Positions 2,635 to 61,597 of a stretch of 64,000 nucleotides of DNA are shown here, piece by piece. Position 1 is the first letter of the stretch. The number at the start of each line of letters is the position of its first letter. The translations under genes and the position numbers were made by a program. The DNA comes from Magnetococcales bacterium (GTDB taxonomy: Bacteria > Pseudomonadota > Magnetococcia > Magnetococcales > JADFWU01). The stretch lies in NCBI GenBank assembly GCA_015234045.1, contig JADFWU010000006.1:42376-106375 (forward strand), written 5' to 3'. The notes beneath the pieces were generated by a model. That model was not told the DNA's origin and searched no databases. It was given only the letters and a program-made list of their open reading frames with translations.

Positions 2635-2799
2635 AGTGACTTAACAGGAGGTTTGTTCAAAAAAAACCATGTCAATTTGAGTGCAGTGCCAACAACGACA
2701 ACCGCACTAGACAAAGCTATTGGAGAAGCACATAGAGGGTATTCACAGCGAATTAACTTTAGAAAAGGATGGCGCGGTCATCTCTGGCAAGGCCGTTTG
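2635..2799 (+). pseudogene. REP-associated tyrosine (Y1, HUH) transposase fragment
   Basis: One reading frame translates to NHVNLSAVP, then ALDKAIGEAHRGYSQRIN and FRKGWRGHLWQGR. This matches the central block of REP-associated tyrosine transposases (RAYT, IS200/IS605-like), whose usual form is NHVHLIAVP, GEAHRRYTRxINFREGWRGHLWQGRF. The HUH metal motif is damaged (HVN instead of HVH). The start of the gene and the region with the catalytic tyrosine are missing. The coding match stops exactly where a REP-like repeat begins at 2800. It is a dead remnant of the element that probably seeded the repeats in this island. Confidence 0.75.
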
Positions 2800-2825
2800 A
2801 AATCGGTAAGGTGCCCCCTGATTTT
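2800..2825 (+). repeat. REP-like repeat R1
   Basis: A 25-base unit reads AAATCGGTAAGGTG followed by CCCCCTGATTT. Its two ends are imperfectly complementary (AAATC...GATTT). It abuts the truncated RAYT remnant. Related units occur at 3658-3704, 3806-3830, 3845-3869 and 4785-4834. Confidence 0.8.
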
Positions 2826-2924
2826 GTACCGTTTTATTGACTATCAGGGCCGCATCAGGATACTATCCTGTTGTTGATAACTATTCAATTTTCAGTACAC
2901 ATCAGGAATAAACGAGATTTTCGA

Positions 2925-3134
2925 ATGGGTAAAAAACTAACCGCCAAAGAAGCAAAAGAGCTTGCGGAGTTGGAAGCACAACACGGCGCTGATATGTACA
3001 ATTCTGCTGTCGTTGCTGTGTCAGGTATGGTGTTCGGCAATACTGGTGACACTGCTGATGACGACGCTATTCTTAAACGTTACAAATCCAATTTATCCGA
3101 AAAAAGCGATGGATTTGGAATGTTAGATGGCTAA
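2925..3134 (+). CDS. small protein of unknown function, first of an overlapping pair
   Basis: I do not recognise this 69-residue protein. It has a lysine- and alanine-rich helical start (MGKKLTAKEAKELAELEAQ), a small-residue hydrophobic middle (NSAVVAVSGMVFG) and an acidic, glycine-containing tail (TGDTADDD, SDGFGMLDG). The start at 2925 was preferred over 2871 because the added residues look non-coding. Its stop overlaps the next gene's start by eight bases, so the two are co-translated. The pair is bracketed by REP-like repeats R1 and R2 in an accessory island. A small first gene overlapping a larger second one recalls toxin-antitoxin or defence modules, but no motif supports either. Confidence 0.55.
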   Translation: MGKKLTAKEAKELAELEAQHGADMYNSAVVAVSGMVFGNTGDTADDDAILKRYKSNLSEKSDGFGMLDG

Positions 3135-3627
3135 AAAACCCCATGACTGGATTAATGAGTGGCGTCACGATCCAAGTAAAAGGCTAAAAATTCTTCGCCG
3201 TAAAAACACACTGACCCACAAGTACAACGCCTTTGCTGAAAAGCATAAATGGAAAAAAACGGAGCTTAATGGGCAGATATTGGCGAACTGTGTCTATAGT
3301 TATTACTTGGAGGTACAGCGCCATAAGGAGTTTCATGGTATTGATAACGCTGATGGTATTAAGAAAGCGGCTTATTTAACCAAGTGGCTGCTGAAGACCA
3401 GGCCGATCCAGGTTCTTAATGACAATACGCGATCCGAGACGGCAAAGTATCCTTTACTTGCCAATGAAGGATTTGCTTTGAGCGTAGCGTTGACCTTTTT
3501 GGATATTAAATGGAACGCAGTGCCCAACGAGGTAATCACCAGGCTTTTGTACGATTTTCACTATCGCCCAGTCGTGGCAGAAACTTTGATTACAAAGTTT
3601 CTATTACTGAAAGAAACTTACAGTTGA
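3127..3627 (+). CDS. basic protein of unknown function, second of an overlapping pair
   Basis: This 166-residue protein is not one I recognise. It is rich in lysine, arginine and aromatic residues, begins MAKKPHDWINEWRHDPSKR, appears mostly helical, and has no signal peptide or membrane segment. Notable stretches are ANCVYSYYLEVQRHKEFHG and IKKAAYLTKWLLKTRPIQVL. The ATG lies inside the end of the preceding 69-residue gene (eight-base overlap), so expression is coupled. REP-like repeats lie about 30 bases after its stop and upstream of the pair, which suggests that the two genes moved as a unit. No catalytic motif is evident. Coding status is supported by length, the overlap and protein-like composition. 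Confidence 0.6.
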   Translation: MAKKPHDWINEWRHDPSKRLKILRRKNTLTHKYNAFAEKHKWKKTELNGQILANCVYSYYLEVQRHKEFHGIDNADGIKKAAYLTKWLLKTRPIQVLNDNTRSETAKYPLLANEGFALSVALTFLDIKWNAVPNEVITRLLYDFHYRPVVAETLITKFLLLKETYS

Positions 3628-3657
3628 AGGAAAATCAGGGGAAAATCAGGAACAGGA

Positions 3658-3704
3658 AATCAGGGAGCACCTTACCTATTTTATAAAAGATGTCCCCTGA
3701 TTTG
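3658..3704 (+). repeat. REP-like inverted pair R2
   Basis: A reversed unit (AAATCAGGGAGCACCTTACC then TATTT) is followed after a few bases by a forward half unit (AGATGTCCCCTGATTT). The two arms can pair as a hairpin, like a BIME of REP elements. Extra partial copies (AAAATCAGGGG and AAAATCAGGAA) lie just upstream at 3631-3651. Confidence 0.7.
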
Positions 3705-3805
3705 GTTATTGGAACGTTTGGATATTCAATTAACAAGGCCTCTCAAACCAAGGAGAGCAGGTAGAAAACCATCATCCAATCAATAATATTATGAATGACC
3801 AAGGG

Positions 3806-3869
3806 AAATCGGTAAGGTGTCCCCTGATTTACAATGACCAAGGGAAATCGGTAAGATGTTCCCTGATTT
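3806..3869 (+). repeat. REP-like direct pair R3 and R4
   Basis: Two forward copies, at 3806-3830 (AAATCGGTAAGGTG, TCCCCTGATTT) and 3845-3869 (AAATCGGTAAGATG, TTCCCTGATTT), sit in a 39-base tandem repeat that also includes AATGACCAAGGG. They end 15 bases before the start of the Mrr gene. Confidence 0.8.
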
Positions 3870-3884
3870 TGGAGAGTTTGAAAA

Positions 3885-4721
3885 ATGTCTAAATTCCCAC
3901 GAGTCGTAGATTTGGTCTGGCCAACCATGCAAGCCCTTCAGATCCTTGGGGGGTCTGGTTCCAATGAAGAGATTCTAACTACGGCTATTGAGGTCATGAA
4001 CCCTCCTGAGGAAATCCAGAATGTTCCTCACTCTGACGGAAGGCAGACAAGGCTTGCATACAGATTAGCCTGGGCAAGAACAGTGCTAAAAAAAATGGGA
4101 GCGATTACCAACAGTTCCCGCGCAGTGTGGAGCATCACGCCTTCAGGTGAGAGCATGACAGAGGAACAGGTTCTCAGAGAGGCACCTATCATCACGAAAA
4201 ACACCAGTAGTTTGGATTCCAGAACAGACACAGAGCTTGAAGACATTGATATTAATGCCGCTGGTGATTGGAAACAAAAGCTTTTAGAAATTCTCCGCGA
4301 CATTCCCCCAAATGCTTTTGAAAAACTGACACAACGCATTCTCAGGGAGAGCGGTTTCATCAAAGTTGAGGTTACCGGTCGTACAGGAGATGGGGGAATT
4401 GATGGTCAGGGCATCCTAAAAATGAACTTAATTTCATTTCAGATATTCTTTCAATGCAAAAGGTACAAAGGAACCGTTGGTGCTGGTGATGTCAGAGATT
4501 TTCGCGGGGCGATGCAAGGTCGAGGTGATAAGGGGCTGTTCGTAACTACCGGCGCTTTCAGTGGTTCAGCAAAGAATGAAGCCACACGCGATGGTGCGCC
4601 AGCTCTTGATCTCATTGATGGTGAAGCACTTTGCGATCTTCTCAAGGACCTCAATTTGGGTGTGCGTACTGAAATGGTAGAGCATGTCACAATAGATCCA
4701 GAAGTATTCGGGGTTGCGTGA
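3885..4721 (+). CDS. mrr: Mrr-type restriction endonuclease
   Basis: Mrr proteins are type IV-like endonucleases that cut modified DNA. The 278-residue protein has an Mrr_N winged-helix domain at about 1-95 and an Mrr catalytic PD-(D/E)xK domain at about 135-260. The catalytic block is seen as LTQRILRESGFIKVEVTGRTGDGGIDG, with the metal-binding Asp at 173, followed by FQCKRYKG with Gln190 and Lys192; the domain ends with the usual FVTTGAFSGSAKNEA. All expected active-site residues are present. The start has a GGAGAG site at an acceptable distance. No methylase or specificity gene is adjacent. REP-like repeats flank it on both sides, so it was probably acquired as a module. Confidence 0.9.
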   Translation: MSKFPRVVDLVWPTMQALQILGGSGSNEEILTTAIEVMNPPEEIQNVPHSDGRQTRLAYRLAWARTVLKKMGAITNSSRAVWSITPSGESMTEEQVLREAPIITKNTSSLDSRTDTELEDIDINAAGDWKQKLLEILRDIPPNAFEKLTQRILRESGFIKVEVTGRTGDGGIDGQGILKMNLISFQIFFQCKRYKGTVGAGDVRDFRGAMQGRGDKGLFVTTGAFSGSAKNEATRDGAPALDLIDGEALCDLLKDLNLGVRTEMVEHVTIDPEVFGVA

Positions 4722-4784
4722 CCAAAGAAAGAATACATGCCCTGATAAGATAGAGATGTTAGCTATTGAGGAAAATCGGGTCAA

Positions 4785-4834
4785 AATCAGGGGAAAACTT
4801 ACCTATTTTATTAGTAAGATGTCCCCTGATTTGG
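4785..4834 (+). repeat. REP-like inverted pair R5
   Basis: The reverse arm (AAATCAGGGGAAAACTTACC, then TATTT) and the forward arm (AGTAAGATGTCCCCTGATTT) face each other across a short AT spacer and form a long hairpin. It closes the Mrr module on its downstream side. The 4722-5028 gap contains only this pair and AT-rich sequence before the antitoxin. Confidence 0.8.
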
Positions 4835-5028
4835 AGTAGCAAAGGAAAAGGAAATCAGTGACCGTGTCAATCTGCTATATGAACATTTCTACATGATTAG
4901 ATTTTTGATGCGTTTGCCCTTGTCCCACCCTGCTGAATCCAATAACGATTATTAATGCTTATACGAGACTTGATTTGACCAAACGATCTATAAATAGCTC
5001 TAATAGCTACTTTGTAGGAGCGATTAAC

Positions 5029-5327: not shown

Positions 5328-6353
5328 ATGATGATTTTTCGGTTACTCCTTCTTTGTTTACTGAGCACCCTCAGCGCCAATGCCACTGCTGCTGTGCTGC
5401 ATGTCGGGCCGGGTTCGGTTTATAGTGTGCCGAGTCAGGCGGCTAACGTGGCGAAGGATGGTGATATTATTACCATTCAGGCGGGTAGCTATAAAGATTG
5501 CGCGGTTTGGAAAGCGAATAAATTGATTATTCGTGGGATCGGTGGGATGCCGATTGTTAAGGATAAAATGTGCCACGGTAAAGCGATCTGGGTTGTTACT
5601 GGGGATCATATTATTGTTGATACCATCGCCTTTTCTGGTATGAAGGTGCGGGACCGCAATGGGGCTGGTGTTCGGATTGAAGGACGGGATTTGACCATTC
5701 GCAATGCGCTGTTTCAGGATGGTGAGTCCGGGGTTTTAGGCGGTGGTCAGCGTCCTGATGATCATATTGTTATCGAAAATAGTCGGTTTGTGCGGCTTGG
5801 TCGCAATGGTCAGGCACATCCGATCTATATTAATCACGCCAGCATGTTTACTCTGAGTAACAGCATTGTTCAGGATTGTCTGAACGAAGCAAACTGCGTA
5901 AAAAGCCGTGCCCATCAAAACATCATTGTCAATAACGTTATTGATAGCCGACTTGGCGATAGTTCTTGGGAAATTGACATACCAAACGGCGGAAAAACAG
6001 AGATTGAAGGAAATTTAATCATCCAAAGCGAAAAAAGTGTCAACCGTGGTTTACTTGGTTATGCCATGGAATACACGCCAGCTGATCGAAACCATACACT
6101 GATCATCCGCAATAACCTATTCATCAATGACCAGAGCAAAGGACGCTTTATTGATATTAATCGACACCTGAAACCAACGATCACAGCGCACAATAACGGG
6201 TTTGTCGGCCCAGGCAGGATAAGTGAAAAAGTACCTGCCCAGACCGATAACGATTTCTTTAATAGTCGTGCAGAAACCGTTAAGTTTCTCAATATTAATC
6301 GCACCGATCCACGTGCAAAATGGCGCGAATATCTATTAGGAATCAGCAAGTAA
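5328..6353 (+). CDS. secreted right-handed beta-helix protein
   Basis: A 341-residue exported protein. Residues 1-22 form a signal peptide (hydrophobic RLLLLCLLSTLSANATAA with an AxA-like cleavage site). The mature part has repeated short strands typical of parallel beta-helix (pectate lyase-like) folds: GDIITIQAGSYKDCAVWK, NKLIIRGIG, GDHIIVDTIAFSG, RDLTIRNALFQ, NTFSNSIV-like and HNNGF turns with stacked asparagines. Such folds bind or cleave polysaccharides, but catalytic residues of a known lyase family cannot be identified here. Its last codons lie in the first copy of a 123-bp tandem duplication. Confidence 0.75.
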   Translation: MMIFRLLLLCLLSTLSANATAAVLHVGPGSVYSVPSQAANVAKDGDIITIQAGSYKDCAVWKANKLIIRGIGGMPIVKDKMCHGKAIWVVTGDHIIVDTIAFSGMKVRDRNGAGVRIEGRDLTIRNALFQDGESGVLGGGQRPDDHIVIENSRFVRLGRNGQAHPIYINHASMFTLSNSIVQDCLNEANCVKSRAHQNIIVNNVIDSRLGDSSWEIDIPNGGKTEIEGNLIIQSEKSVNRGLLGYAMEYTPADRNHTLIIRNNLFINDQSKGRFIDINRHLKPTITAHNNGFVGPGRISEKVPAQTDNDFFNSRAETVKFLNINRTDPRAKWREYLLGISK

Positions 6354-6565
6354 CCCGTTCAACTGTTCATCCCATGCCGACAGATCGGCAACCGCTGGCA
6401 AACAGCGACCCGCCACACAAAGCGCTGCGCCATTCGCATCAAATGGCGCGAATATCTATTAGGAATCAGCAAGTAACCCGTTCAACTGTTCATCCCATGC
6501 CGACAGATCGGCAACCGCTGGCAAACAGCGACCCGCCACACAAAGCGCTGCGCCATTCGCATCAA
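6318..6565. repeat. perfect 123-bp tandem duplication at a convergent gene junction
   Basis: Copy 1 runs from about 6318 to 6440 and copy 2 from about 6441 to 6563, with two shared bases after. No mismatch was seen between them. The unit contains the last codons of the beta-helix gene (plus strand) and the last roughly 35 codons of yyaL (minus strand). Collapsing the repeat makes the two genes overlap by 18 bases at their 3' ends. The duplication separates them while leaving both intact. Confidence 0.95.
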
Positions 6566-8486
6566 TCCGCCCGTCCATTTCACTGGGTAGCTGTTCACCG
6601 TTCTCAACAGACCAGCAAACAGGATCAGGCAGATAATGTTTGCCCATTTTTTTGAGAAATGACTCACGCTCCGGCCCAACACAAACCACTTCAGCACCAC
6701 CCGATTCCAACAGATCATCAGCCAGTAGAAGTTGACCAAATCCGCCCACACCACGCTGATACCACGGCCCAAAAAAGGCCACTGTTTTACGAGCCAGATC
6801 GGCATAATGCGACTCTCCTGTCACTGCCGCCATTCGTGCCAACACATTGGCCGCTGTACCATTTCCAGAGGGCGTTGCATCATCGAATCCACTTTTGGGA
6901 CGAACAATGACATCCTGCTGGCCTTCCGGTGTCATGAAGAACCCTCCTGCCGGATCGGAAAAGCGTTGGATCATTTCATCCACGGTTTGTTTGGCGCGTT
7001 GTTGCCACTGTGCCGAATCATCAAACACCAATGCCGCTTCCAAAAACGCATCCGCCAATTGAGCATAATCGTTGAGAAAAGCTGGCGTGTGCCGTTGTCC
7101 ATTACGCCATACCGCATACCAAATCCCTTGTTGATCATCACGCATGGTTGTGGTGACGAACTCCAGGCAGTTTCGCGCCATATCAAGAGCGTGTTGATCG
7201 TCTGACAAAGCACTATGACGCAACAAACCACGCACCATCAAGGCGTTCCAACCCAATAACACTTTATCATCTCGACCCGGCTGTTCCCGCTTATGCCGAA
7301 CCTGTAACAGTTGGTCAGCGATAGTTGACAGTCGTTTCTCAGCATCAGCACCAAACCGTTTTTCCAATGCCTGCATCGATTCCGCACGCACCGGAATGGA
7401 TCGCCCTTCGAAGTTGCCACCCTTTTTAATGCCCCAAGCCGCCAAAGCCAGTTGTGCATCTTCAGCGGAAAGAACGGTATTGATCTCTTCCGGTGTCCAG
7501 ACTGCATAATCCCCTTCACCGCCGCTGGTATCGGCATCCAAAGAGGCAGCAATACCGCCCTCTTTCAACACCATTCTACGTTGAAGCCAATTGACAATCT
7601 GCTCACGTGCCCGCTTTCGTTCAGCGTCCACCCCCAACAGCGCGTCACACTCCGATAACACCAAAAGCAGTTGCGCGTTGTCATAGAGCATTTTTTCAAA
7701 GTGCGGCACAATCCAAGCATCATCCACACTATAGCGCGCAAATCCACCGCCAAGCTGATCATGAATTCCACCGGCAATCATACAATCCAAGGTAAAGGAA
7801 ACACCCTCCGCCGCCCGACCATCACCGGTACGAAAGGTATGACGCAACATCAAACGCAGATCCGGTATATGTGGAAATTTCGGCGCTGGACCAAACCCAC
7901 CCTGCATCCAATCCATCGCCTCTATCAACTGTGGTGCAATTTGTCTGGACCACCCGCTACTCTGTTCACCGCTTTCGGTTATCTGGCTATTTTGCCGTAA
8001 TGCTTGAACCAGTGTATTGCCCTGTGTTTCCACATCCGTGCGTTTTTGAGTCCAAGCACGCATCACACCTGCCAGAATCTGCCCAAAGGCAGGCATGCCC
8101 TGGCGCGGTTGCTTGGGAAAATAGGTGCCTGCGAAAATCGGTTTCAAATCCGGTGTTAAAAACATCGATAGAGGCCAGCCACCAGCCCGTTGTGCAATCA
8201 AATGGTGCGCGTTTTGATAAATCTGATCCAGATCAGGGCGCTCTTCTCTATCCAGTTTGATATTGATAAAGTCCCGGTTCAAAATCTCCGCTGTCTCCTT
8301 ATCCTCAAAGGATTCATGAGCCATCACATGACACCAGTGACACGCACTGTAGCCGATGGACAGGAAAATAGGCTTATCCTGAGCCTTGGCCGCCGCTAAC
8401 GCCTCTGAACACCAGGGATACCAATTCACTGGATTACTGGCATGCTGTTGGAGATAGGGACTGGTTGCCTGTTTCAGTCGATTCAT
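6459..8486 (-). CDS. yyaL: thioredoxin-domain protein YyaL (DUF255, SPATA20-like)
   Basis: YyaL-type proteins join an N-terminal thioredoxin-like domain to a C-terminal (alpha/alpha)6 barrel resembling N-acylglucosamine 2-epimerases; the cellular role is not settled. The N-terminus is the usual [20 protein letters not shown], followed by NWYPW and the redox motif CHWC at residues 49-52. [16 protein letters not shown] and GTYFPK follow, then the barrel with [12 protein letters not shown] and SLDADT. The start at 8486 is set by GAGGAG a few bases upstream; a longer frame from 8585 lacks such a site. Length is 675 residues, as usual. The gene converges on the beta-helix gene, and its last codons are duplicated. 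Confidence 0.92.
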
Positions 8487-8679
8487 CAAAACTCCTCGGA
8501 ATTGCTTTACATCGGCACGCGGACAACGTAGAAAACTAGTGAGTGATCCTCTGTTAATGGACACCAAGCTATTGGAACAGTTCATCCCATGCTTGCAAAC
8601 AAAGATCCACTAACCACTGTTATTTTCCTTATGAAACCATTCTTACTCTATATGGATCTCGATCTGTGCTCCATGAACT

Positions 8680-29269: not shown

Positions 29270-31144
29270 GTGCAAACAGCCTTCCAACGCATCATGAATA
29301 TTCTGGTCATATCGGCACTTATCCTCTTCTCACTGACTTATCTGGTCAAAGCGGCGTATGTGGGTGATGGTTTTTTTGTGGATGACACCTACTATTATAT
29401 GGTTGCCGCCATGAACTTTGTGGAACATGGCTTTCTAAGTCTGGACTCAGTCACACACACCAACGGCTATCACCCGGTCTGGACCGGTGTCTGCATTGCC
29501 GTAGCCTGGGTGGTCAAACTGTTTGGCGGCACTCATAACCACATGGCCATGAGCATTGCCATGGTTGAGGCCATTTTCTATGTCTTGACGTTGGCTTCAT
29601 TGGGGTTCTTTTACAGTAAACTGAGCGATGAAAAACCCAACCGAGCGCTGACCTTCTTTACACTCGCCGCCATATTATCCTACCCGTTGGTCAACTGGAT
29701 GTTTCGATTGGGCATGGAGTCCACCCTGACGGCGCTGATCATGGTCTGGCTGGTCTATTTTCTGATCCGTGAGCGATGGTTTGCACTGTCGCTGATTATG
29801 GCCCTGCTGGTTATGACACGGCTGGACACACTGGTATTTCTGATCTTTCCAACCTTGATGCTGCTCTTGATCCGGCCTGACTTCTCTCTGTTACGACCTA
29901 TTGTTACCGGTTTTCCAACGGCTTTAGTCACCGCTGGGTATCTCTATTACAATCATCTCACCTTTGGTCACATCAAACCCATAAATGGTGTGCTACGCTC
30001 CTCGTTTCCCATACCCACACCGCACTGGACCTTTCCACTTGATCCGGTAGCCAATGTTCATGATATCTACGGTGCCATCAAACTATTTTTAATGCCCAAC
30101 ACGCTATTATTGGTGGTGTTAGCCGTTGTTGGCATTGGTCTGATGTTACTTGGACCAGTACGTGAACGTCTACGCAGCATTGATCGTCTGTTCCTGATTA
30201 CCGGCACCTTGTTGGTACTCAATTTAATCCTGTTTCAAAAGTGGTCCAAAGGCATTGAACAGTGGTATTTTGCAGCGCCTCTAATACTGCTCATTCTTGG
30301 CTATGGTGGCATGTTCCGCGCCCTGCTTAATATGGTTAATCCAACTTGGTTGCGGGCTCTACTGGTCACTGTACCACTCTCTGGACTGGCCTATGTCGCC
30401 TTTGGTATGAGCCTGAATACCACAGGCAATGCAGAAATCTCGTCAATAGTCTCACTTACTCTGGCAGGACTGATTCCACTTGTTGCCATTGTGTCCCTTC
30501 TGATTAAAGTAGAACCGATCAAACCGATCATTATGGCCATGGGATTTTCCGCCCTGCTGGTCTCTGCCACTGTGCACGCATTGACCCTTTCTCAGGATCA
30601 CCGAACTGACGCTGCACTATTGGATAAGTTCACACAATGCGTCACCGACAATGTTGCACCAGATGCCTTTGTTGCTGGAACTGACATCGGCGGAACAGCG
30701 TTCAAATCTCAGCGCCATTTCGTTAATCTTGACGGTGTGGTGAACAATTTTGTCTATCAGGAGTATTTGAGAGACAAACGTCTTGCTGATTATCTGACCA
30801 TGAAGAACGTCCAATACATCGCTGTCACACTGTCGGAAAATCCGACCTTCAGCCCATATCGTGACATTGAAAACATGTATAAATCACGCATCGCGCCCGA
30901 AGCTGTACGCAATGAACCCTATGAGTCTGTACCATTTTATGTCTACTCATACATGTACAATAACTTCAGCGATGAAATTCCACTGTTCCAACGCAATGAG
31001 GTGTGTCGTTCGGAGGTTTATATGGGTGGGAACAATCCATCAGTCGATATGCTGTTCCGCATTGAGGCATCGGTCTCTGACACACCTAAACCGGCCACCG
31101 ACAGTACCCATGAACCCGCTAACAACACTGAGCCAACAGGCTGA
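29270..31144 (+). CDS. large membrane glycosyltransferase-like protein (GT-C fold)
   Basis: A 624-residue inner-membrane protein with about eleven spans in residues 1-440 and a periplasmic C-terminal domain. The first loop has the acidic motif DDTYYYM after the first span and THTNGYHPVW, as in GT-C enzymes that use polyprenyl-phosphate sugars. The tail (residues about 595-624) is acidic and proline-rich. The GTG start has AAGGGG upstream; an ATG at 29294 is the alternative. A link to the upstream UbiA-DprE genes is inferred from position, with a repressor gene between. Donor and target are unknown. Confidence 0.7.
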   Translation: MQTAFQRIMNILVISALILFSLTYLVKAAYVGDGFFVDDTYYYMVAAMNFVEHGFLSLDSVTHTNGYHPVWTGVCIAVAWVVKLFGGTHNHMAMSIAMVEAIFYVLTLASLGFFYSKLSDEKPNRALTFFTLAAILSYPLVNWMFRLGMESTLTALIMVWLVYFLIRERWFALSLIMALLVMTRLDTLVFLIFPTLMLLLIRPDFSLLRPIVTGFPTALVTAGYLYYNHLTFGHIKPINGVLRSSFPIPTPHWTFPLDPVANVHDIYGAIKLFLMPNTLLLVVLAVVGIGLMLLGPVRERLRSIDRLFLITGTLLVLNLILFQKWSKGIEQWYFAAPLILLILGYGGMFRALLNMVNPTWLRALLVTVPLSGLAYVAFGMSLNTTGNAEISSIVSLTLAGLIPLVAIVSLLIKVEPIKPIIMAMGFSALLVSATVHALTLSQDHRTDAALLDKFTQCVTDNVAPDAFVAGTDIGGTAFKSQRHFVNLDGVVNNFVYQEYLRDKRLADYLTMKNVQYIAVTLSENPTFSPYRDIENMYKSRIAPEAVRNEPYESVPFYVYSYMYNNFSDEIPLFQRNEVCRSEVYMGGNNPSVDMLFRIEASVSDTPKPATDSTHEPANNTEPTG

Positions 31145-31251
31145 GTGGAAGCCCTGGTGATGTTTTTGCGCCGCTTTTGATATGTGAAGCAGATCATCGG
31201 GGCAAAAACATCGCCAGGGCTGGAACGGCTGCCTGTTCAAACTTTAGACGA
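31141..31251 (+). repeat. 111-nt structured repeat element, copy 1
   Basis: A near-perfect inverted repeat (AGCCCTGGTGATGTTTTTGC against GCAAAAACATCGCCAGGGCT) encloses an inner part with further pairing (CCG/CGG, TGAT/ATCA). It starts within the stop codon of the GT-C gene and is followed nine bases later by a terminator. Copy 2 at 61394-61504 is the same length with ten differences (about 91% identity). It should be transcribed as a 3' untranslated structure. Confidence 0.85.
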
Positions 31252-31258
31252 ATTCACG

Positions 31259-31301
31259 ATAAAAAAAGGCCCTGAATGGTCATAATTCAGGGCCTTTTTT
31301 T
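31259..31301. terminator. bidirectional terminator between the GT-C gene and the hemerythrin gene
   Basis: A long perfect stem, AAAAAAAGGCCCTGAAT / ATTCAGGGCCTTTTTTT, with A- and T-runs on both sides, serves the convergent genes. Confidence 0.95.
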
Positions 31302-31322
31302 ATGGATTGAATTCAATACCGA

Positions 31323-35966: not shown

Positions 35967-36191
35967 AAAAGTTCGTTCAACTGCGTAACGCCTGTTTATA
36001 TGTTTCCTTGGACCTGGAACCATTTATAATCTCGTAGTATTTTGTAAATTAGCTGATGAAAGTATAGAATAGGTTGGTTTTTTCTTTGATTGTCCATAGA
36101 GCAGAATTCCATAATATTTTCAATTGGTAATCATTAATTAACCTATTAAAATTGCACTGACTTCAAGTCATACTCCAAGGACTATCATCCC

Positions 36192-49654: not shown

Positions 49655-49742
49655 GGATGGGTGGCTGAGTGGTCGAAAGCAACGGTCTTGAAAACCGTCG
49701 TATCGCAAGGTACCGTGGGTTCGAATCCCACCCCATCCGCCA
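49655..49742 (+). tRNA. tRNA-Ser (anticodon UGA)
   Basis: Acceptor GGATGGG pairs with CCCATCC, then discriminator G and encoded CCA. The anticodon stem is ACGGT/ACCGT with loop CTTGAAA, giving anticodon TGA. A long variable arm (CGTATCGCAAGGTACC) and T arm GTGGG-TTCGAAT-CCCAC are present. All features fit a bacterial tRNA-Ser. Phage-derived genes follow within a few hundred bases, as expected if the tRNA was an integration site. Confidence 0.97.
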
Positions 49743-49847
49743 TTTATTTACTGTTTTAAACACATTATTCTTTCCTGGAACTCTTCTCTGAATATGCGAA
49801 CGTGAAAAAACGTGACAACGATCTGTCACGCTGGGATTATTCTACAA

Positions 49848-50015
49848 ATGGGCCGACTGGAAGGCCAAATAGGCCGACTGGAAGGCCAAATGGGCCGACT
49901 GGAAGGACAAGTAAACGGAGTGGAAAAGGAAATGCTTTATCTTCGTTGGATGGTCGGCATCACCTTGTCCATTTCAATCGCTTCATTGGACCTGATGATT
50001 AAACTGGCCCTATGA
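49848..50015 (+). CDS. small coiled-coil membrane protein with 7-residue repeats
   Basis: A 55-residue protein. Three 21-base tandem repeats (49848-49910) encode MGRLEGQ, IGRLEGQ and MGRLEGQ, a heptad coiled coil, followed by VNGVEKEMLYLRW and a membrane segment (MVGITLSISIASLDLMIKLAL). Such small coiled-coil-plus-TM proteins are common in phages and near lysis genes, but no function can be assigned. A GTG at 49812 would add 12 residues. A terminator follows. Confidence 0.6.
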   Translation: MGRLEGQIGRLEGQMGRLEGQVNGVEKEMLYLRWMVGITLSISIASLDLMIKLAL

Positions 50016-60674: not shown

Positions 60675-60692
60675 GTGAATAGGATTTTTACA

Positions 60693-61361
60693 ATGAATTT
60701 TTCAATGCACAAACGGCCAGTCATGGCTTTCTTACTCGGCCTGTTAATTCTGTTATCCGGCTGCGCCATGAATCCACCACCGAAAGCGGATTACACTGCC
60801 TTCAATCAAGCGAAACCCCGCTCTATTCTGGTGGTTCCGGTCGTCAATCAAAGTGTAGAAGTAACTGCACAGGACTATTTTCTTTCGACCATTACGATTC
60901 CACTGGCAGAGCGTGGATATTATGTTTTTCCAGTCAACATGGTAAAACGCACGTTGGAGGATGACGGCCTCAATGATGCCAATCTCGTCCACAATGCGCC
61001 CACTGAGAAACTGGCCGCACTGTTTGGTGCGGATGCTGTTCTGTTCATCACCATCACCCGTTGGGATGCACAGTATATGCTACTGACCACACAGGTAACC
61101 GTTGAGATGGAGTATGTTCTCAAGAGCGCTGCATCCGGTGAGATCATCTGGAATAACAAAAAAACCATGATCTACCAACCACAGAACAATAACTCAGGCG
61201 GACACCCCATCGGCATGTTGATCGCCATGGCCATCTCTGCGGCGATAACCAAGGCCATGCCCAACTATATTCCGCTAGCCACGCAGGCCAATAATCAAGC
61301 CATCTATAACGAACATAACGGGCTGCCCATTGGACCATACAGCAAAGCAAAAACAGAGTAA
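60693..61361 (+). CDS. DUF799 (GNA1162-family) lipoprotein
   Basis: A 222-residue lipoprotein with signal FLLGLLILLSGC. The core has ADYTAFNQAKPRSILVVPVVNQSVEV, YFLSTITIPLAERGYYVFPVNMV and KLAALFGADAVLFITITRWD, the GNA1162/DUF799 pattern. The structure of this family is TolB-like, which suggests a role in an envelope export complex with the CsgG-like protein. ATG 60693 has AGGA eight bases upstream; the GTG at 60675 is less likely. A 111-nt repeat and a terminator follow. Confidence 0.88.
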   Translation: MNFSMHKRPVMAFLLGLLILLSGCAMNPPPKADYTAFNQAKPRSILVVPVVNQSVEVTAQDYFLSTITIPLAERGYYVFPVNMVKRTLEDDGLNDANLVHNAPTEKLAALFGADAVLFITITRWDAQYMLLTTQVTVEMEYVLKSAASGEIIWNNKKTMIYQPQNNNSGGHPIGMLIAMAISAAITKAMPNYIPLATQANNQAIYNEHNGLPIGPYSKAKTE

Positions 61362-61393
61362 TTTCGACTCAAAATCAGGCAATCATTCACAAC

Positions 61394-61504
61394 CTGAGTG
61401 GAAGCCCTGGTGACGTTTTTGCGCCGCTTTTGATATGCGAAGCAGATCATCAGCGCAAAAACATCACCAGAGCTGGAACGGTTGACTGTTCAAATTTTAG
61501 GCGA
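61394..61504 (+). repeat. 111-nt structured repeat element, copy 2
   Basis: Same length as the copy at 31141-31251, with ten base differences. The main stem (AGCCCTGGTGACGTTTTTGC against GCAAAAACATCACCAGAGCT) is kept: a G-T wobble in copy 1 becomes A-T here, while two new C-A mismatches appear. It lies 32 bases after the last lipoprotein gene and 9 bases before a terminator, the same position as copy 1. Confidence 0.85.
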
Positions 61505-61512
61505 AAGAACTA

Positions 61513-61560
61513 TAAAAAAAAGAGGCCACTTTGACACCTGTTCAAAGTGGCCTCTTTTTA
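61513..61560. terminator. bidirectional terminator between the lipoprotein operon and cysS
   Basis: Stem AAAAAGAGGCCACTTTGA / TTCAAAGTGGCCTCTTTTT with loop CACCTG, flanked by A- and T-runs. Confidence 0.95.
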
Positions 61561-61597
61561 TGAAACACAAAACGTTCAACGGCCTACGCCATCCAAC

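Follow-up and report, generated by a model that had tools for sequence, protein, structure and literature searches.

A dispersed 161-bp repeat at gene 3′ ends: very likely a new bacterial MITE family, probably mobilised by IS630

Repeat copies in the window and their neighbouring genes

The window, that is, the whole 64,000-nucleotide stretch of DNA that was analysed, holds two copies of a structured repeat on the forward strand. Copy 1 is left-truncated and spans 31141–31261, equivalent to element positions 41–161 in the alignment of copies; it corresponds to the nhmmer match C84:73483-73637. It comprises the long core hairpin, a small hairpin (GAACGG-CTGC-CTGTTC) and a degenerate right terminal inverted repeat, ...GACGAATTCACGATA, with the end still recognisable at 31261. 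The 42 nt on its left were considered as a decayed left end and rejected as indistinguishable from chance, since 172 of 1000 shuffles reached an equally good alignment. Copy 2 (61354–61514) is complete, with a left terminal inverted repeat CAGAGTAATTTCGA, the core hairpin and a right terminal inverted repeat ...GGCGAAAGAACTATA. Its ends are decayed (CAGAGT...ACTATA), and its left end aligns with the consensus better than 1000 out of 1000 shuffles.

Both copies overlap the stop codon of the gene upstream. ORF 29270–31144 terminates at a TGA (31142–31144, forward strand) in the CTGAG of the element sequence CTGAGTGG, which makes the distance to the gene 3′ end negative at copy 1. The TAA (61359–61361, forward strand) of ORF 60675–61361, a GNA1162-like lipoprotein, is supplied by the left terminal repeat of copy 2. 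A bidirectional intrinsic terminator abuts the right end of each copy and lies outside the element: AAAAAAGGCCCTGAA...TTCAGGGCCTTTTTTT at 31262–31305, between convergent genes, and AAAAAAGAGGCCACTTTGA...TCAAAGTGGCCTCTTTTT at 61515–61564. Both have the order A-tract, GC-stem and T-tract, and the stem starts about 8 nt downstream of the copy. The next gene beyond each copy is on the opposite strand. The position after a gene stop and before a terminator, described in a first-pass annotation of the window, is confirmed for both copies.

The same annotation had delimited the repeat as a 111-nt inverted repeat with inner pairing, present in two copies of equal length and about 91% identity. The aligned segments at 31141 and 61394 are indeed equally long and 90.99% identical. 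Their RNA folds are far better than those of dinucleotide shuffles, with z-scores of −6.0 and −4.0 on the plus strand and −5.8 and −8.4 on the minus strand; none of 200 shuffles folded as well. An Rfam search of the whole window at the gathering score returned tRNA only and had no match at the element.

Unit, copies and mobility of the element

The alignment of all copies with their flanks corrected the size of the element. Similarity between copies extends on either side past the 111 nt, up to TATAGT...ACTATA; the true unit has 161 bp, of which the 111-nt segment is the inner part. The terminal inverted repeats are imperfect and about 28 bp long, TATAGTGATTTCG...CGAAACCACTATA, with TATAGTGATTTCG-TC-AAAATT facing TATAGTGGTTTCGTCTAAAATT. 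Among 71 full-length copies, the columns of the six left-terminal bases carry 1.0–2.0 bits of information and those of the terminal TAs about 1.3 bits; the value drops to 0–0.4 bits just outside. The right end is conserved like the left end, but its last six bases are more variable. The consensus folds end to end: the terminal inverted repeat is followed by a core stem of 20 bp, which includes an inner loop structure, and by the small hairpin. With 161 bp and no long ORF, the unit is too small for a transposase and lies within the size of short non-coding MITEs (below ~500 bp).

The own genome is a 3.65 Mb draft in 117 contigs. A first search returned about 45 forward core copies. The genome-wide covariance search suggested in the first-pass annotation gave at least 149 matches (best E 4e-42), some of them fragments of split copies. 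The 17-nt left end had 136 matches with up to 3 mismatches, compared to one match for the reversed control. A set of 102 copies, each scoring 100 bits or more, was examined closely; 76 of these are full length. Among the other copies, some break off where a contig ends, some have lost inner sequence down to about 90 bp, and some contain a partial tandem duplication. The copies are scattered singly over many contigs and do not form cassette arrays. Several contigs end inside a copy, and the family has probably caused some breaks in the assembly. One locus between convergent genes (C29:108821-109625) has five head-to-tail copies at a period of 161 bp.

Insertion is documented by the copies themselves. 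On contig C63, a full copy is nested in another copy, ...GAGCAAAAG-[TATAGTC...GCACTATA]-TCACCAGGG..., and the TA is duplicated; uninterrupted copies read GAGCAAAAATATCACCAGGG at the insertion point. This natural pair of a filled and an empty site is the sharpest evidence for transposition with an IS630/Tc1-type target choice. Duplication of a TA target is the habit of IS630/Tc1 transposons. Head-to-tail copies on contig C47 have a period of 159 bp, as expected if the TA of one copy had served as the target of the next insertion. The target-site duplication is thus seen in two arrangements, a nested pair and a tandem.

The own genome encodes one IS630 transposase remnant with a broken reading frame. 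It is the single match to PF13358 (66 bits) and scores 59 bits with NF033545, below the curated cut-off of 100 bits. Its TAG stop runs into ...AGAAATGACTATA. Read inwards, this end agrees with the left terminal repeat of the element at 22 of 28 positions, a likeness that none of 20,000 shuffles reached; the likeness to the right terminal repeat is weaker (32 of 20,000 shuffles as good). Only this right end of the remnant was recognised, the left end was not found, and the draft genome yielded no intact transposase. IS630 homologues are present in related genomes, where the surroundings of the match lack these ends. Because the sole PF13358 match is broken and only one of its ends is recognised, the mobilising enzyme is putative; an intact mobilising IS630 would be expected to have the ends TATAGTSATTTC.

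More than one hundred dispersed copies, TA-ended terminal inverted repeats, the nested insertion with its duplicated TA and an IS630 remnant sharing an end bear out the 'mobile hairpin', one of several readings offered in the first-pass annotation. The 161-bp element very likely represents a new bacterial MITE family whose mobiliser was probably IS630. An IS630 transposase acting in trans would have recognised the terminal repeats and inserted the element at TA dinucleotides, before being lost or degraded itself. Copies landing in genes or promoters would have been purged by selection. The survivors, mostly between convergent genes or just past stop codons, would be tolerated there and sometimes supply a stop codon. 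Transcribed, the element would form a long hairpin in the 3′ UTR and may be an incidental substrate of RNase III. The family marks past IS630 activity of this lineage.

Placement relative to genes and tests of RNA function

Genes around the copies were called with a simple home-made coding-score caller. One of the 102 copies scored inside a gene, while a control sequence of 386 kb was about 88% coding. The genes that flank the 89 placed copies are convergent for 44 copies, codirectional for 38 and divergent for 7. With arrays collapsed, 39 of 83 sites are convergent, compared to 9–12 predicted by the length or the number of intergenic regions (p 2e-12 to 4e-16), a 3–4-fold enrichment. The 3′-end placement seen in the window holds genome-wide. 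The median distance to gene 3′ ends is 47.5 bp. Relative to codirectional neighbours, 15 copies have the same and 23 the opposite orientation. A possible preference of the element for terminators was also considered: a strict scan detected a terminator within 120 bp at only 19 of 93 sites, a raw count without background rate.

The element is a further case of a bacterial MITE concentrated between convergent genes. Pneumococcal RUP, SPRITE and IS elements have the same bias, which was read as tolerated insertion (PMC3049150), and QMITE2 of Coxiella is located mainly in 3′ UTRs (PMC10969869). The placement bias alone is no evidence of function.

A MITE-born element may nevertheless have been recruited as a functional 3′-end module, a hairpin that insulates convergent transcription or sets the 3′ ends of mRNAs, perhaps via RNase III. 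The strong enrichment between convergent genes, the nearness to stop codons and the long stable stem are in agreement with such a role, and RNase III cleaves or binds the transcripts of Correia elements (PMC2649163). The sequence comparison of copies argues against it. Stem pairs are conserved no better than loops, with a divergence of 0.055 in the core stem and 0.051 in unpaired core positions. Double changes over all stem pairs numbered 51, compared to 38 expected for independent columns, and several of them fall in the terminal repeats, a part in which the subfamilies are not alike. RNAalifold found no compensatory pairs in 42 copies. The element itself as a terminator was rejected, since a scan of its consensus detected no intrinsic terminator. 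The placement is shared with repeats for which tolerated insertion was the explanation. Core positions vary less than terminal-repeat positions (0.054 versus ~0.09–0.11), which could hint at a constraint on the core or simply reflect end degradation and subfamilies. Recruitment as a 3′-end module is unlikely. Its more specific form, a genome-wide co-option as a bidirectional 3′-end hairpin separating convergent units, would make the family a transposon-derived insulator in about 40 gene pairs and is less likely still. By analogy to the Correia elements, RNase III cutting or another incidental effect on neighbouring mRNAs is possible.

A family of small RNAs released from mRNA 3′ ends would also be structured, multi-copy and located at 3′ ends, and some MITEs do yield small RNAs, for example QMITE in Coxiella (PMC10969869). 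Against this stand the missing Rfam match at the element position, the occurrence of both orientations next to codirectional neighbours and the frequency of truncated and internally deleted copies, which render a small-RNA family very improbable.

Both the RNase- or protein-binding 3′ element and the released small RNA, which the first-pass annotation had listed, are left unsupported: stem and loop diverge equally, covariation is little, pair changes are near the independent expectation, and tolerated transposon insertions have the same placement elsewhere (PMC3049150). Equal divergence, few paired changes and the lack of a terminator lead us to regard the structure as a by-product of the inverted-repeat design of a transposon.

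The palindromic, intergenic and sometimes tandem copies bear some resemblance to REP/BIME palindromes, which a RAYT moves, and to the attC sites of integron arrays. Judged by ends, target duplication and dispersal, either identity is very improbable: a REP is a short palindrome without target duplication, whereas this 161-bp unit has TA-ended TATAGTG terminal repeats with IS630-like character, a duplicated TA and a nested TA insertion, and its copies are dispersed singly rather than in cassette arrays. The first-pass annotation had set the repeat apart from an attC site, by its ends, and from the REP type at 2.8–4.8 kb, and the ends found agree with this.

Related elements and distribution

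The MITE family resembles the Correia elements (CREE/NEMIS) of Neisseria. Correia elements of 104–108 and 153–157 bp fall in the same length class as the 161-bp unit and its internally deleted forms of about 90 bp. Shared features are TATAGTG-type ends, a TA target duplication, an imperfect palindrome and more than one hundred mostly intergenic copies. The 26-bp Correia repeat, TATAG[CT]GGATTAA... (PMC2649163), differs from the element consensus TATAGTGATTTCGATCC; the ends, TATAGTGATTTCG in the element, diverge after TATAGTG, and the cores are unrelated by eye. The host is not Neisseria as far as relatives show, and, unlike Correia elements, the element is enriched between convergent genes.

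RUP of Streptococcus pneumoniae is a MITE whose terminal repeats resemble those of an IS630 element, its proposed mobiliser, and it inserts into other repeats (PMC3049150, PMC10969869). It shares with our element the proposed IS630 link, the over-representation between convergent genes and the insertion into other repeats. The comparison is by description, without sequence alignment: RUP has 107 bp, compared to 161 bp, and belongs to another organism. IS630-Spn1 is common in the genome of RUP, whereas the own genome has only the broken remnant. The MITE in the dsrA intron of Ca. Thiomargarita nelsonii has TATAG termini, a long hairpin, many mostly intergenic copies and a suspected IS630 origin (PMC4853749). 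Likened by description, it agrees with the element in these features and differs by its association with a group I intron.

Outside the own genome, a search of 100 genomes of the order and phylum, none of which belongs to the same family, did not find the element. A covariance search of 60 of these 100 relatives detected only a distant element in genome G027, from a different family of the same order. Searches of plasmids for the element and of viral contigs for the exact 20-base core pattern gave no match. The same pattern had two chance matches in genome contigs of 84,980 species, and the element was absent around both.

The G027 element (L216:1505-1671) is a different MITE. Its left end TATAGTGATTTCAATCC matches the left end of the 161-bp element (none of 20,000 shuffles as good), and its length of ~167 bp is close; the right end reads ...AAAGTCACTATA. 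The interior is another hairpin, CCCGCG..GCGGGAATCCAG, and the covariance match is weak (E 4e-4). The G027 draft genome contains six matches to the left end of its MITE.

A transposon family with exact ends explains the striking repeat, and its sites therefore need no annotation as a new regulatory RNA.

Other repeats were observed in the own genome. A second dispersed inverted-repeat family has the ends TAGGMGTTACGCAGTTG...CAACTGCGTAAC[GT]CCTA; 655 kb of sequence contained 36 matches to these ends. It has one end at window position 35979 and full copies at, for example, loci L022, L172, L210 and L214; it often adjoins the 161-bp MITE and is probably another MITE family. In the window, positions 6318–6563 hold an exact tandem duplication of 123 bp, a length of 41 codons, where ORFs 5328–6353 (forward strand) and 6459–8585 (reverse strand) meet. 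Several direct and inverted repeats of 36–37 nt (GGTAAGRTGTCCCCTGATTT) are located at 2788–4849 around ORF 3885–4721, which has Mrr-type restriction endonuclease domains. A 21-nt tandem repeat, seven codons if translated, lies at 49845–49928, just downstream of a tRNA (49655–49739).
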